34,780 nt of DNA. Origin: a virus. Both the position numbers and the translations under genes were made by a program. Positions within the stretch are counted from its first letter, which is position 1, and the number at the start of each line of letters is the position of its first letter. The stretch lies in IMG/VR virus record IMGVR_UViG_3300042401_000822, positions 1-34,780 of that record; one strand, written 5' to 3'. Below the pieces are notes generated by a model. The model searched no databases. It was not told where the DNA came from and saw only the letters and a program-made list of their open reading frames with translations. Shown here piece after piece: positions 1,710 to 10,533 of the stretch.

Positions 1710-1976
1710 TCAAAGTGGTAATTTCCCTCTACGTTTTAAATAATTCTGTTCCTCTGCTTCATTTTGTACTTTATCTTTAAGCGACTGATTTATCAATTTT
1801 GATATAGATTCAATTTCAATATCTACTTCTTCGCAGTATTGTATAATCGCATCCATATATCCAATTTTTTCTCTAATTACACGCTCTTCAATATGCAGGG
1901 AAAATTCATTAGGTGATCTAAATTTTTTGGTTATAATTAAACTATCTGTTAAAATGTATTCTATTTCGTTATCCAT
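1710..1976 (-). CDS. 33: gp33-like late-transcription co-activator
   Basis: In T4, gp33 bridges RNA polymerase and the gp45 sliding clamp to activate late promoters with gp55. This 88-residue protein is small, acidic and helical. Its C-terminal part (DAIIQYCEEVDIEIESIS, then EAEEQNYLKRRGKLPL) matches the pattern of gp33 proteins of T4-like marine phages as I know them. It is shorter than T4 gp33 (112 aa). The ATG sits inside the end of the bilin reductase gene (8-nt overlap), so it is coupled to the pigment genes. A separate promoter at 2137-2165 can also express it. Confidence 0.8.
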   Translation of the reverse strand: MDNEIEYILTDSLIITKKFRSPNEFSLHIEERVIREKIGYMDAIIQYCEEVDIEIESISKLINQSLKDKVQNEAEEQNYLKRRGKLPL

Positions 1977-2646
1977 GTGTTTCCGGGAATAATACTTCGT
2001 CCATAAAATTTGTAAAAACTTGTTTGTCTACTCCAAAATTTACCATCATTGCTGGGGTATGAGGATTCAACTTTTGATTTTTGCAATATCGATTTTGCAT
2101 AGATATAAAATCTGCATCTTTTACACTATTACCTATATTATAAAGGTAATAATCCAAGTTGTCAATAAAAGTATTTACTAGTTGATCATATTCTTCTTGA
2201 GTATGAATATTACCTGCAGCTAACATTTTTGGACTAAAAATCTTCTGTGCCCATTCCGGAAGTTCTCTTGGCTTACTCCATTGTACTCCACTCATTCTAT
2301 TTTGATACCACTCATACAAATCTGATTTTCCTACTTTAGAAAAATCATGAAATGCACCTGTTATTTTATTCTGGCCGCACACTATATCAAATCCAAAGAT
2401 TGGATCTGGAGAATCATAATGGGGAAAAATACACATATGCATGACCCACATTTTTTTAGTTGCAGTAGCGTCTACTATCTCAATATGGGCTCGTCTAAAT
2501 TTATCAGATGTCCAAATATAATTCTTCCATGAAAAATTATCAACATGTATTTCATATTCTGGTTTAAGTGTTTCTGCGGAATATTGTTTAAATTTATCAA
2601 TAACTAATTGTGATAATAAATTTACTTGCGGCCAAATTTCAATCAT
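1969..2646 (-). CDS. pcyX: Ferredoxin-dependent bilin reductase, PcyA/PcyX type
   Basis: Ferredoxin-dependent bilin reductases reduce biliverdin IXalpha to phycobilins. This 225-residue protein has the PcyA-type core: FRRAHIEI, then VMHMCIFP, then PIFGFDIV. These place Glu56, His70 and Asp87 at the positions of the PcyA catalytic Glu, His and Asp. The C-terminal block resembles the usual family ending (Asn-Pro-His-Thr, then FTNFMDEVLFPE). The ATG at 2646 is chosen over an in-frame start at 2679 because AAGGA lies 6 nt upstream and the overlap with hemO is ATGATTGA. A homologue class named PcyX is known from uncultured non-cyanophage viruses and makes phycoerythrobilin. Whether this enzyme does 4-electron (PcyX/PebS) or PcyA chemistry cannot be read from sequence alone. 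Confidence 0.88.
   Translation of the reverse strand: MIEIWPQVNLLSQLVIDKFKQYSAETLKPEYEIHVDNFSWKNYIWTSDKFRRAHIEIVDATATKKMWVMHMCIFPHYDSPDPIFGFDIVCGQNKITGAFHDFSKVGKSDLYEWYQNRMSGVQWSKPRELPEWAQKIFSPKMLAAGNIHTQEEYDQLVNTFIDNLDYYLYNIGNSVKDADFISMQNRYCKNQKLNPHTPAMMVNFGVDKQVFTNFMDEVLFPETHG
2137..2165 (-). promoter_or_regulatory. Sigma-70 consensus promoter inside pcyX, facing gp33/gp59
   Basis: TTGACA (2160-2165), 17-bp spacer, TATAAT (2137-2142) on the minus strand, a 12/12 match within the pcyX coding sequence. It would give gp33, gp59 and downstream genes a transcript without the bilin genes. Confidence 0.75.
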
Positions 2647-3172
2647 TAAAGTCCTTAAGCATAGCAATATTAAAGTCAAATGCTAAATTTGCTTCACTTG
2701 CTAATGAAATATCTAATTTACTTCTCATCTTAGCTGCAAGCCCAGGAATATCATCAAACTTAAACATATTATTAGGACCAGGGAGCAACTTAGCTAATGC
2801 CTGTCCTCCAAATAAATCTCCCATATGACGAACATAAATGTGAGCAAGTAATTTATCTTTATCTAACTTAATAGACTCAATATATTCTAAATATTGAGCG
2901 GTAGAATTTTTCATCAAAAATATTTGCATATTAGTATTTGCCAATTCAGCAAAATCCAATTCTATAGCTTTTGCTCGTTTAATATCCTCTATTCCTTCGA
3001 AGATACCTAACCCATCTGCCAAATATTCTAAGCGCAAATATATTAATCTAAGTTGATATAGATAATCTGTATATTTTTTAACATCTACCGTTTTACTAAA
3101 AATGGATTTAATAAATGGTTGTGTCTCAGCTTCTTTATGTTTTTCTAAAGTTAATTCTTTTAATGTAGACAT
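2639..3172 (-). CDS. hemO: Heme oxygenase (biliverdin-forming)
   Basis: Heme oxygenase opens heme to biliverdin IXalpha, CO and Fe2+, supplying the substrate of the adjacent bilin reductase. At 177 residues it is a compact all-helical member, shorter than cyanobacterial HO1 (about 240). The proximal helix carries His12 in LTLEKHKEAE. The distal helix reads YVRHMGDLFGGQ, with Asp119 and the flexible GxxGGQ element that packs over heme. The C-terminus retains the usual EANLAFDFN segment. It begins in a TAATG overlap with the 2OG oxygenase and ends in an 8-nt overlap with pcyX, so the three are one translational unit. No signal peptide, so it is cytoplasmic. Confidence 0.93.
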   Translation of the reverse strand: MSTLKELTLEKHKEAETQPFIKSIFSKTVDVKKYTDYLYQLRLIYLRLEYLADGLGIFEGIEDIKRAKAIELDFAELANTNMQIFLMKNSTAQYLEYIESIKLDKDKLLAHIYVRHMGDLFGGQALAKLLPGPNNMFKFDDIPGLAAKMRSKLDISLASEANLAFDFNIAMLKDFND

Positions 3173-3780
3173 TAGTTACCTTTTCTTGGGTTTGCCGGAT
3201 ATCCAATGTATGGTCTGTGATCATATTTGTAATCCCGATACTTACCTTTTCTATCGACGTAGTGTAGGAATGCTTGTGTTTGTCTAGTACCGGTATAGGG
3301 AGTTCTCCAATGATTAAGTACATCCCCCTTATAAACAATTAAGTCACCTGGTTCCAAGTATATTGCTTTGTGTTCGCCGGTTAAAGTCTCAAACCAAATT
3401 TCCCATGGTTCTGGATCATTTGAAATGCAGATAGTAGTGGAATATTCGCAACTTGGCCTATCCTTATGTATTGCCATTTCAGCGCCAGTATAGTATATCC
3501 TAGCATAAGTATATGTAGGATTAAGCAATTTACCTGTAACTGTTTCTAAAAGGGGTTTAAGTTGAAGAGATAAAGATTCAAAACAAAGAGCAGAATAATG
3601 AGAATATGAATTCATAATTTGCTCGTCATTGAAAAGAAATTTATTCTCCTCAGTCTGTTGCTTATTATTTTGCATATACTGAAGAGTTTTTACTAGTTCA
3701 AATTCTGTATCTAAATGCACTAGTAAATCTTTTGAAATTGCTCCGCGAACAATTTCATATAAATTTGTCTCAAATTTCAT
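3172..3780 (-). CDS. 2OG-Fe(II) oxygenase upstream of hemO
   Basis: A 202-residue protein of the 2-oxoglutarate/Fe(II) dioxygenase superfamily. The iron triad is visible as His105-x-Asp107 (EMAIHKDRPSCEYS) and His157 (DVLNHWRTPY), followed by Arg166 as a likely 2-oxoglutarate ligand (TGTRQTQAFLHYVD). Such enzymes are common in T4-like marine phages but their substrates are unknown. The start is set at ATG 3780, which has AAGGA 6 nt upstream; the frame extends further only through a TTG. Its end overlaps the hemO start by one base, so it is the first gene of the bilin cassette and may act on a related substrate, though that is inference. Confidence 0.82.
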   Translation of the reverse strand: MKFETNLYEIVRGAISKDLLVHLDTEFELVKTLQYMQNNKQQTEENKFLFNDEQIMNSYSHYSALCFESLSLQLKPLLETVTGKLLNPTYTYARIYYTGAEMAIHKDRPSCEYSTTICISNDPEPWEIWFETLTGEHKAIYLEPGDLIVYKGDVLNHWRTPYTGTRQTQAFLHYVDRKGKYRDYKYDHRPYIGYPANPRKGN

Positions 3781-3803
3781 ATATTTCCTTGATAAAATCA
3801 TAT

Positions 3804-3832
3804 CCGGTTGATTGGATGATAAGGACAACCGG
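3804..3832. repeat. Inverted repeat between tmRNA and 2OG oxygenase
   Basis: CCGGTTG (3804-3810) and CAACCGG (3826-3832) form a perfect 7-bp inverted repeat with a 15-nt loop, directly after the tmRNA coding piece. It could be a processing or termination signal, or shield the oxygenase leader. There is no clear U-run after it on the minus strand. Confidence 0.45.
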
Positions 3833-4107
3833 AAAAACCTCAGCGAGTAGCTTACGCTACCATGCGATACGAGTTATCGTTTGCATTTACTATTTTGCTT
3901 GATTTACGGTCATCGCCTACCGAATTGTCTGTATCGTTACTTATTGCCCAATCGAAACCTGGTCATCCCCATCAAAAGCATATTAGTTCTCAGTGACCGA
4001 TGCCGTTAAATAACACCGATGTATCTACTATGCTTTTGGTGGAGATGGAGGGAATCGAACCCTCGTCTTGAACACCTTTCAGTCAACTTCTTCCCTTTCG
4101 GGGTTTA
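3833..4107 (-). ncRNA. ssrA: Circularly permuted (two-piece) tmRNA gene
   Basis: tmRNA rescues stalled ribosomes by trans-translation. On the minus strand the acceptor piece comes first (about 4107-4037). It has a T-arm GAGGG/CCCTC (4064-4048) with TTCGATT loop, acceptor strand CATCTCC (4047-4041), discriminator A and an encoded CCA (4039-4037). After a 66-nt intervening segment comes the coding piece (3970 to about 3833), starting GGGGATGACC with the conserved GGTTTCGA. GGGGATG pairs with CATCTCC over 7 bp (one G-U). TTGGGCA in the coding piece pairs with TGTTCAA before the T-arm (helix 2). GGTTT (3839-3835) pairs with AAACC (4106-4102). The tag frame ends in a GTAGC-GTAA-GCTAC hairpin with the stop in the loop. 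Exact mature ends are not determined. Confidence 0.93.
3852..3884 (-). other. tmRNA proteolysis-tag reading frame
   Basis: Starting at GCA (3884-3882) after AGTAAAT, the frame reads ANDNSYRMVA then TAA (3854-3852). The ANDN start matches tags of alphaproteobacterial tmRNAs and other proteobacteria. The end MVA is hydrophobic and resembles the usual VAA/LAA degron but lacks the final double Ala. The resume codon is assigned from the conserved context, not measured. Confidence 0.85.
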
Positions 4108-4218
4108 CAATAATTCTTTTACTTCATCCCAAAGTAACCACATTGCTAAATTAATAGTACATATTAGTGTAGTTCCTAGAATGAAACCGACCAAAAAATC
4201 TCCTGTTTGGTCGCACAT
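4105..4218 (-). CDS. Small membrane peptide (37 aa)
   Basis: Begins MCDQTGDFLVGFILGTTLIC. One hydrophobic segment spans roughly residues 8-29, followed by a Trp-rich charged end (WLLWDEVKELL). Its ATG follows directly after the stop of the 52-residue gene. Its last codons run to the start of the tmRNA acceptor piece. No family recognised; small size keeps confidence moderate. Confidence 0.45.
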   Translation of the reverse strand: MCDQTGDFLVGFILGTTLICTINLAMWLLWDEVKELL

Positions 4219-4396: not shown

Positions 4397-5056
4397 TTAG
4401 ATATTAAATTCTTTCCTATATATATCTCTCAAATCTTTAAACCCGTTGATCCACGTGTTTCGTTTTTCTTTAAAAACTAGAATACCGTGATCGTCGGTTG
4501 AAATTATAATTACTAATTGAGAAACCGGATTACCGGTCATCTCCTCATATGCTACCGCATAAGCAGAACATTGCATAAAGTAATCGTGAATATCGTCGCG
4601 TGTTTTATTCCGCTTAGATGTTTTAAAATCTATTACCGATAACTTTCCTTCATATTCACCTATGCAATCTACGGTCCCTGCAATTTGTAAATGATGAGAA
4701 AATAGAGATTTTTCCATAACATGGATATTGTCTATCTTATGTAGGTAGGGTTTAATCTCTGTCCAATTTTGAGTATCGAACACACTAGGAGCAACATCTT
4801 GATTATACAGATATTGCTCACATAATGTATGTATTCGAGTACCTCGTTTACTGGCAGTGGTGCTAATCTTATTAGCTGCATCATTACCTACACGAGCCCG
4901 CCATGCTTTAATTATATCTCGTTTTAATAATCCGGTAACTGTAGTAACAGACGGGTACTTTTCTCCAGTAGGAGTTTCATATGTTCTAACTCCATCTTCT
5001 CGAGTTACCCGATTTAATTTAGGCAATTCCCCTATATCAACGTGAGTAAAAATCAT
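4397..5056 (-). CDS. PD-(D/E)XK (RecB/Cas4-like) exonuclease
   Basis: A 219-residue predicted nuclease. The core is GTVDCIGEYEGKLSVIDFKTSK, giving Asp130 and the Asp143-x-Lys145 pair of the PD-(D/E)XK site. Glu115 lies upstream and a QxxxY motif follows (QCSAYAVAY, Gln162 and Tyr166). His76 in RIHTLCE matches the N-terminal helix of RecB-like domains. Probable role is processing DNA ends in recombination or host DNA degradation. The start overlaps the MazG-like gene in an ATGA arrangement. Confidence 0.78.
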   Translation of the reverse strand: MIFTHVDIGELPKLNRVTREDGVRTYETPTGEKYPSVTTVTGLLKRDIIKAWRARVGNDAANKISTTASKRGTRIHTLCEQYLYNQDVAPSVFDTQNWTEIKPYLHKIDNIHVMEKSLFSHHLQIAGTVDCIGEYEGKLSVIDFKTSKRNKTRDDIHDYFMQCSAYAVAYEEMTGNPVSQLVIIISTDDHGILVFKEKRNTWINGFKDLRDIYRKEFNI

Positions 5057-8095: not shown

Positions 8096-9499
8096 TTAGA
8101 AACTAATTTGACTTCTTAGCATAATTGCTTTTTCGCCGTTTACTCTACTACCTGTTGCGCCAACTGGGGAGTTAAATTTGGTATCTACATAATTAAGCAT
8201 GAATCGAACATTGTCATTTAAGAACCAAGTAATACCATATGTCATTGCTGTAGCCTGGTTAGCTTTGCCTGATACTACCGCAATTTTTTCAGCATCAAAT
8301 TCACTGGATCTAATACCCACTTGCCATGCCCCAGGACCGCCGCTGGTAAATGCGTTGTTTGGTTTAATCCAACCAAATGTGCCATCTTTGTAAGCATGAC
8401 TTTCGCCGGTTAAATTGTATACCAACTGAACATAGTTACCTTTTACTTCTTGATTGGATCCTGTAGCCGGGTCATATTTGTAATTAAATTGCTCTCCCTG
8501 TACTTTTAATCCTTTCCAAGCAAACGCTGCCTCAATACCTTGGCGTGTTCTTGCAGTGTCGCCGCTTAGAGCTGGCCCTGTGAACCAAGCACTTTGTTGA
8601 CGAGCTTCAGTACGCCCACTTGAAGGAGTTACTCCAGTTTTTACATCGCCGGTACTGTATGCTGCACCTAAATGAGCCACAAAGTCTTTGTTCTGAATTA
8701 ACTCAGCAAAGTTTGTAGTTATACGTCCAATAAAATCTACACCATCTACGGTGGCAGTTTTATTAGCACGTCCACGGCTTGCAGCTAATGCATAAGTTAT
8801 ACCTGCTCTAGGGACACCATGTAACATGATACCCGTTTCTTTAGCCGGAATAAACTCACCCTCTGTTTGTCCAATTAAACTGCGTTCCATAAAGTCAATG
8901 TTGTTAGAGCTGGTCAATTGCTCAAGACTGAAAGGCATTTTGAACGTACCAAACTGAAGTTGCATAGCAGGATTTGCTGCATAATTCACCCAGAATTCAT
9001 CTATTGTGGATGTGGTAGAACTTGCACCAACATCATTTCCAAAGTTTGCTAGTAATTGATATTTGAAGTCTTTAGCAATCTGTCCCCTAACTCCAAAGCG
9101 ACCTCGTCTGACTTCTAGCGCATCTTGATACGAGTCTGCGGTTTGGCCTGCACCGTAGGCTGGACTATAACTTCTATAATCCATGTGAATTCTACCTGTG
9201 AATTGTGCAGTGGTATTTCCGTCTTTGGATTTGATTCCAAGTCCGTTTTCCATTACAGCACCATCACTGGCTTTACTTAGTCTGTAGTTGTTGTTGTCTC
9301 GCAAGTCCTTGTCCACACGAGAAGAATTAAACTGTACATTTTCTGCCTTGTCTTCGTGCGCGGTAACTTTTCTATAATGTTCTTCCTTGGTTAATATTCC
9401 TTTTTGCAAAAGAATATCCAAGGTATCTGTGTAATCATCTGCCATTGCAGGTGACGCAAAGCATAGTGCTAAGAGAGATATAATAGTAATTTTTTTCAT
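8096..9499 (-). CDS. Outer-membrane porin, OprO/OprP (phosphate-selective) type
   Basis: A 467-residue precursor. The signal peptide MKKITIISLLALCFASPAMA is followed by a helical segment, then a long beta-barrel region with family features: FTGRIHMDYRSY, LEVRRGRFGVRGQIAKDFKYQLLANFG and FGTFKMPFSLEQLTSS. It ends in SQISF, an aromatic C-terminal residue as recognised by the BAM machinery. The start at 9499 has AAGGA 6 nt upstream; the frame runs six codons further. It lies 8 bp after pstS and so shares the Pho-box promoter. It probably admits phosphate to the periplasm, or changes the cell surface. Selectivity cannot be judged from sequence. Confidence 0.87.
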   Translation of the reverse strand: MKKITIISLLALCFASPAMADDYTDTLDILLQKGILTKEEHYRKVTAHEDKAENVQFNSSRVDKDLRDNNNYRLSKASDGAVMENGLGIKSKDGNTTAQFTGRIHMDYRSYSPAYGAGQTADSYQDALEVRRGRFGVRGQIAKDFKYQLLANFGNDVGASSTTSTIDEFWVNYAANPAMQLQFGTFKMPFSLEQLTSSNNIDFMERSLIGQTEGEFIPAKETGIMLHGVPRAGITYALAASRGRANKTATVDGVDFIGRITTNFAELIQNKDFVAHLGAAYSTGDVKTGVTPSSGRTEARQQSAWFTGPALSGDTARTRQGIEAAFAWKGLKVQGEQFNYKYDPATGSNQEVKGNYVQLVYNLTGESHAYKDGTFGWIKPNNAFTSGGPGAWQVGIRSSEFDAEKIAVVSGKANQATAMTYGITWFLNDNVRFMLNYVDTKFNSPVGATGSRVNGEKAIMLRSQISF

Positions 9500-9507
9500 A
9501 ATAATCC

Positions 9508-10533
9508 TTATTTCCAAATTGCCTGACCGCTAGGATCTTTAAGTTCTTTTTTCCAATTGTCCTGCACTAGTTTAATCACTGAAACTGGCATATGCACATA
9601 CTCTAATTCTTCACTCATCTTGGAACCGTTTCTATAGCTCCAGTCAAAGAATTTTAGTATTGCACGACCCGTTAATAGATCGGCCTGTTGCTTGTGCATT
9701 ATGATAAAGCTGGCACCTGTTGCTGGCCATGAATCTTTACCAATCTGATTCGTTAACAACAAATACATTCCTGGGGCATTGTTCCAATCTGCATTGGCAG
9801 CTGCCGCTTTAAATGCATCGTCGCTCGGCTGAACAAAGTTTCCATCGCGGTTCTTTAGTTGAGCATGAGCAATTTTGTTCTTTTTAGCATACGCATATTC
9901 TACATAACCAAATGAACCTTTGATTCTTTGTACCTGCGCTGCAACACCTTCGTTACCTTTGCCGCCAATACCCACCGGCCACTTGACTGCTGTAGCAGCA
10001 CCAACTACTTTACCAAACTCTGCGTTAGTTTTGCTTAGATAATCACACCAAATAAATGTTGTACCTGATCCATCAGCGCGATGTACCACTGTTATTGCCT
10101 GTGCAGGTAAAGTAATGCCAGGATTTAAACTGGTAATGGCCTGATCGTTCCACTTGGTAATTTTACCCAAATGGATATTGGCAATGACATCACTTGTAAG
10201 TTTCAATTGCCCCGGAGCAATACCATCTAGGTTTACTACTGGAACTACACCGCCAATAATGGCTGGGAATTGCATTAGACCTTCTTTTTCTAGATCCTCC
10301 GGTTTCAATGGCATGTCAGACGCACCAAAGTCAACGGTTTTGGCTTTGATTTGCTTGATGCCGCCGCCGGAGCCGATTGACTGATAATTGAGGCCGATGC
10401 CAGTAGCTGCCTTGTAAGCTTCTGCCCACTTTGAGTAAATAGGGTACGGAAATGTAGCCCCCGCTCCTGTTAAATCTGCTGCCGATACCAATGTAGAAAC
10501 TGCTAATAACAATACTGCTAATAATTTTTTCAT
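9508..10533 (-). CDS. pstS: PstS, periplasmic phosphate-binding protein
   Basis: PstS binds inorganic phosphate in the periplasm and hands it to the host PstCAB transporter. The 341-residue precursor has a signal peptide (MKKLLAVLLLAVSTLVSA) and the phosphate-binding loops GAGATFPYPIYSKW, SIGSGGGIKQI, DFGASDMPL and HRADGSGTT. Length matches bacterial PstS, and it resembles the proteobacterial form. No pstA, pstB or pstC is present, so it must plug into host proteins. A four-unit Pho box lies 40-80 bp upstream, and the porin gene follows directly. Ribosome site AGGAG precedes the ATG. Confidence 0.96.
   Translation of the reverse strand: MKKLLAVLLLAVSTLVSAADLTGAGATFPYPIYSKWAEAYKAATGIGLNYQSIGSGGGIKQIKAKTVDFGASDMPLKPEDLEKEGLMQFPAIIGGVVPVVNLDGIAPGQLKLTSDVIANIHLGKITKWNDQAITSLNPGITLPAQAITVVHRADGSGTTFIWCDYLSKTNAEFGKVVGAATAVKWPVGIGGKGNEGVAAQVQRIKGSFGYVEYAYAKKNKIAHAQLKNRDGNFVQPSDDAFKAAAANADWNNAPGMYLLLTNQIGKDSWPATGASFIIMHKQQADLLTGRAILKFFDWSYRNGSKMSEELEYVHMPVSVIKLVQDNWKKELKDPSGQAIWK

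Follow-up and report, generated by a model that had tools for sequence, protein, structure and literature searches.

What does a two-piece tmRNA gene do in a phage, and to which tmRNA lineage does it belong, when the tag that it encodes ends in -RMVA? The question is raised by a minus-strand locus in a stretch of viral DNA of 34,780 nucleotides (IMG/VR record IMGVR_UViG_3300042401_000822; hereafter, the window), which is a fragment of a T4-like phage from freshwater. Phage two-piece tmRNAs are already known, and the uncommon point here is the tag ending, -RMVA and not the usual -LAA. Two-piece tmRNAs of aquatic phages have been published for the Methylophilales phage Melnitz together with a survey of phage genomes, in which two-piece genes made up 53 of the 133 distinct structures of phage tmRNA and 50 of those 53 came from marine or aquatic phages (PMC9004378), while phages contribute 79 of the 97,179 entries in a tmRNA database (PMC11915505). 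Like the window phage, Melnitz is an aquatic T4-like myophage whose tmRNA gene is permuted (PMC9004378). However, the Melnitz tmRNA is of alphaproteobacterial lineage and is accompanied by a glutamine riboswitch, whereas the window gene fits the betaproteobacterial model and has the tag end -RMVA; a search of the window for riboswitch families in Rfam found none. Among phage isolates, the best DNA match is the group of Stenotrophomonas phages Moby, Mendera and IME-SM1, isolates of about 160 kb that likewise have a tmRNA, named SsrA in the annotation of some of them, although the alignment extends over just 7-23 % of the query. Set beside these three, the related locus L072 has a permuted tmRNA with the tag end -RIAA, located among tRNA genes. 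To the two-piece tmRNAs known from aquatic phages, the window gene contributes a branch of betaproteobacterial type, one that has lasted within its phage group.

The identity of the gene is given by two kinds of search. ARAGORN called a minus-strand permuted (two-piece) tmRNA gene with the tag ANDNSYRMVA at 3761-4129, and Rfam returned RF04321 (tmRNA_permuted) at 3852-4099 with 124.7 bits (gathering threshold 47, E value 3.3e-24, model positions 1-213 of 213) as well as RF01850 (beta_tmRNA) at 3790-4141 with 103.2 bits (gathering threshold 84), scores that are far above chance. A reading made from the sequence only, before any search, had proposed a phage-encoded permuted two-piece tmRNA and a covariance search as the check, and these matches bear it out. 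Its range, 3833-4107, marked the right locus, without naming the strand, but stopped short of the 3' hairpin at one end and of the acceptor piece's opening bases at the other. As it had also said, the acceptor piece precedes the coding piece, and CCA is encoded. A spacer lies between the two pieces, and the tag frame is intact from its resume codon to its stop codon. The gene sits between a candidate 37-amino-acid ORF, which ends at 4105 and encodes a membrane-like stretch, and a gene with its ATG at 3780 (Table 1).

Table 1. Coordinates in the window of the tmRNA gene, its parts and the adjoining genes.
Feature	Position	Strand	Basis or detail
Permuted tmRNA gene, minimal extent	3803..4111	-	conserved helices; ARAGORN, RF04321, RF01850
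Acceptor piece	4037..4111	-	helix coordinates
Bridge strand ATTGT, acceptor piece	4111-4107	-	
Species-specific insert with CCCCGAAAGGG hairpin, acceptor piece	hairpin 4103-4093	-	
Helix-2 strand TGTTCAA, acceptor piece	4074-4068	-	
T-arm, acceptor piece	4064-4048	-	
Acceptor strand CATCTCC; ACCA	4047-4041; 4040-4037	-	
Intervening spacer, 66 nt	3971..4036	-	ends pair (AAAGCATA/TATGCTTT)
Coding piece	3803..3970	-	helix coordinates
Acceptor strand GGGGATG	3970-3964	-	
Helix-2 strand TTGGGCA	3951-3945	-	
Bridge strand ACAAT	3928-3924	-	
Hairpin in coding piece	3922-3907	-	
Tag reading frame ANDNSYRMVA and stop	3852..3884	-	resume codon GCA, stop TAA
Hairpin GGTAGC/GCTACT across tag end and stop codon	3846..3861	-	fold of one sequence
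3' hairpin of coding piece	3833-3803	-	
Gene downstream of tmRNA, ATG at 3780	3172..3780	-	PHROG 2954, labelled ferrochelatase; no Pfam match
37-aa ORF, candidate	4105..4218	-	stop codon (TTGTAA) overlaps conserved 5' strand of acceptor piece
PD-(D/E)XK exonuclease gene, upstream of tmRNA	4397..5056	-	

The two pieces are held together by helices that are conserved well beyond the window. A G-U wobble at the third pair of the acceptor stem is the alanine signal, and the stem that had been proposed for the window, GGGGATG/CATCTCC, is paired at 7/7 positions with a G3-U70 wobble. When the helices were compared across 26 genes (22 viral and four bacterial), full 7/7 pairing with G3-U was present in 26/26, despite about seven different stem sequences, among them GGGCCTG/CAGGTCC, GGGCCAG/CTGGTCC, GGGGGTG/CACCTCC and GGGCTTG/CAAGTCC; these acceptor counts come from direct strand-to-strand matching, since in part of the MAFFT alignment the acceptor strand was shifted out of register. 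The proposed helix 2, TTGGGCA/TGTTCAA, likewise joins the pieces, with 181/181 cells paired and changes on both sides, and a bridge of ATTGT with ACAAT is paired in 126/130 cells, again with changes on both sides. Compensatory changes are found in the acceptor, T-arm and bridging helices of the 26 genes. The closing pairing GGTTT/AAACC of the sequence-only reading was rejected because its AAACC side falls within an insert seen only in this species; the conserved bridge is the ATTGT/ACAAT helix instead. The spacer, whose fold has an energy of -15.9 kcal/mol (z -2.3), would be removed from the transcript, as in permuted tmRNAs. The hairpin across the tag end and stop codon is a candidate element drawn from a fold of one sequence and from inspection by eye, since the alignment breaks there (poor per-column score); at the homologous position, phages with -LAA tags appear to have AGCAGC/GCTGCT.

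The lineage of the gene differs from what had first been supposed. The permuted order had been taken as a hint of an alphaproteobacterial host, to be checked with RF01849, but RF01850 was the sole survivor of clan competition in the window, and likewise at L040, L053, L062, L192 and L198. Among the bacterial genes compared, the closest tmRNAs, found by BLAST with the phage gene as the query, are of the betaproteobacterial type (L291 and L293, with summed blastn scores of 135 and 130 bits), whereas the few alphaproteobacterial-looking tmRNAs compared reached 23 bits at most. An alphaproteobacterial origin is accordingly rejected and, judged by these model and BLAST scores, the tmRNA lineage is betaproteobacterial. 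Direct searches of many genomes with RF01850 scored few candidates per genome and probably missed most true genes. The strong RF01850 scores of the nearest bacterial genes suggest that these come from the Burkholderiales in the broad sense; their tags are ANDENFALAA or ANDESYALAA, the latter in both L292 and L293. With the betaproteobacterial permuted tmRNAs described by RF01850, the phage gene shares the gene order, the helices and the AND- start of the tag. However, it differs from them in its tag end, -RMVA where theirs is -ALAA, in a spacer of 66 nt against about 30 nt, and in a 14-nt insert near the 5' end.

Retention was assessed among 34 relatives that had been fetched by their exonuclease gene and so were not picked for having a tmRNA. 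A permuted tmRNA accompanies the exonuclease gene in 30/34, always on the same strand and mostly 180-1200 bases downstream; of the four relatives without a nearby tmRNA, two end soon after the exonuclease and a third (L058) has its tmRNA elsewhere. Judged by this placement, the tmRNA gene is an established part of this group of T4-like aquatic phages. A sigma-70 scan, of a kind that may not suit this phage, gave no promoter-like site near the tmRNA. SmpB was not found in seven phage records, a weak absence given that some of the records are fragmentary, and host SmpB would then be needed.

Conservation can also be read within the species, which consists of two types that are 93.5 % identical across 2.8 kb, type A being the window and L037-L039 and type B being L040-L045 and L070. 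The type A contigs are identical across the 2.8 kb and most type B contigs look alike, so that conservation within the species amounts to two observations, not ten. Most of the acceptor piece and of the coding piece has the same sequence in both types, and the difference is concentrated in a block that opens at the T-arm and runs up to where GGTTTCGA begins (approximately 3961-4065 in the window and 6993-7100 in L040). Within this block, the acceptor stem, a T-arm pair, the spacer and the spacer stem have changed, while every pair and the G3-U wobble are kept and the tag is unchanged. The simplest reading would be recombination with another phage tmRNA at two flanking conserved motifs, and a block swap that retains every pair is a further sign of function. 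The two close strains thereby provide a natural mutant pair in which the pairing rules can be seen at work.

Considered together, the full-length Rfam matches, the compensatory changes in the helices, the 30/34 retention and the intact tag frame, of which the distant phage L198 keeps 9/10 residues with changes at synonymous positions although its mature tmRNA is only 62 % identical, argue that the locus is probably a functional phage-borne two-piece tmRNA of betaproteobacterial type, engaged in ordinary trans-translation during infection. The transcript would probably form part of the minus-strand gene string, from which host tRNA-processing enzymes would cut the acceptor and coding pieces, leaving them paired. 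Host alanyl-tRNA synthetase could then charge the tmRNA by way of the G3-U70 signal that is seen in its stem and, together with host SmpB, the charged RNA would enter ribosomes stalled on broken mRNAs, a situation that should be frequent as a T4-like phage degrades the nucleic acid of its host. ANDNSYRMVA would be added to the unfinished protein and the ribosome freed, the -MVA end most likely still serving as a C-terminal signal for degradation of the tagged protein. On balance the phage would gain by keeping free ribosomes in steady supply and by recycling amino acids.

The part of this account that most invites an alternative is the tag. The usual LAA-like ending is a common but not a defining feature of tmRNA tags, and it is absent here. 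A tag could be recognised in 79 distinct permuted tmRNAs of viruses, and its ending is -AA in 70, -VA in seven and -NA in two, shares that are rough and lean towards -VA because the search pattern and a scan for -VA shaped the sample; since 9/79 viral tags thus end other than in -AA, the -MVA ending does not exclude membership among the two-piece tmRNAs. An unlikely alternative is that rescue works but that the RMVA tag is tuned to give tagged proteins another fate than the host tag does (slower or faster degradation, or removal by a different protease), which might protect proteins of the phage or evade host adaptor proteins, to name two examples. Put in terms of a lineage, and as doubtful, T4-like phages would mark rescued proteins with a -RMVA or -ALVA tag of their own, selected to differ from the host -LAA and changing the protease or the rate. 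Consistent with such tuning, -VA occurs in those 7/79 viral tags versus 0/22 of the bacterial permuted tmRNAs compared (22/22 end in -AA), and the pattern AND--Y-[LMV]VA following TAANTGC was not found in genome_contigs, which holds about 85,000 species genomes. However, few bacterial tags were sampled and the genome scan covered a single tag shape, and the suggestion of the sequence-only reading that the tag differs from those of common hosts is upheld only to that extent. The same pattern in viral_contigs gave 11 stretches, nine of them from this species and two from distant T4-like phages, with the tags ANDESYRMVA (L198) and ANDESYALVA (L192). A second scan in search of a host with the tag, for starts in ANDNSY, gave 33 stretches that, judging by organism (not each was checked), are mostly not permuted tmRNAs. 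Recurrence of RMVA in so distant a phage as L198 also favours a tuned tag. Against it, most related phages retain -LAA, -IAA or -MAA, and GFP in Escherichia coli is less stable with an -LAA or -LVA tag than with AAV or ASV (PMC9097571). As -LVA is grouped there with -LAA as a strong degron, the -MVA end probably still acts as a C-terminal degradation signal, in keeping with ordinary trans-translation.

However the tag is used, its history can be sketched. A route from ALAA through ALVA to RMVA is plausible from the tags at hand, and comparison of TACGCATTGGTAGC with TATCGCATGGTAGC shows one T inserted and one T lost, so two frameshifts that compensate for each other could account for the step to R-M. 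L198 is farther from the window than are L047, L048 and L053, the tags of which end in -LAA, which implies that RMVA moved between phages or arose twice. Among the papers searched, none mentions ANDNSYRMVA, ANDESYRMVA or ANDESYALVA. The -VA tags offer a simple way of asking if what becomes of tagged proteins is changed by phages.

Two further explanations were weighed. It is very unlikely that the product is a decoy RNA, one that would weaken trans-translation in the host by tying up SmpB, EF-Tu or alanyl-tRNA synthetase, in the manner of the tag-less RNA of phage DS6A, a tmRNA-like RNA that inhibits endogenous tmRNA in E. coli (PMC11915505); the DS6A RNA is without a tag frame, whereas here the frame, the resume codon context and the stop codon are intact and kept in relatives. 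That the gene is an unused passenger captured from a host is extremely unlikely, for although phages carry host-derived genes freely and integration often takes place at tmRNA genes (PMC11915505), the wide syntenic retention, the compensatory changes in three helices and a tag intact over large divergence all speak against it.

Several observations lie to the side of these questions. The draft genome of Rhodobacteraceae bacterium Water_Bin34 (G002; L237 and L243), by its name a metagenome bin, has eight RF04321 matches on different contigs and is perhaps a mixed bin or one that contains phage contigs. Just downstream of the tmRNA region in the window, genes for a heme oxygenase (PF01126) and a ferredoxin-dependent bilin reductase (PF05996) adjoin one another at 1969-3172 on the minus strand. 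The pair resembles the hemO-pcyA/X pair known in aquatic phages, including the freshwater phage CB_2 (PMC11480375), and it is kept in L047, L048 and L053. Also on the minus strand, at 8096-10533, a gene for a phosphate-selective porin O/P (PF07396) stands beside one for a phosphate-binding-like PBP protein (PF12849), and these two are apparently auxiliary genes for phosphate uptake.
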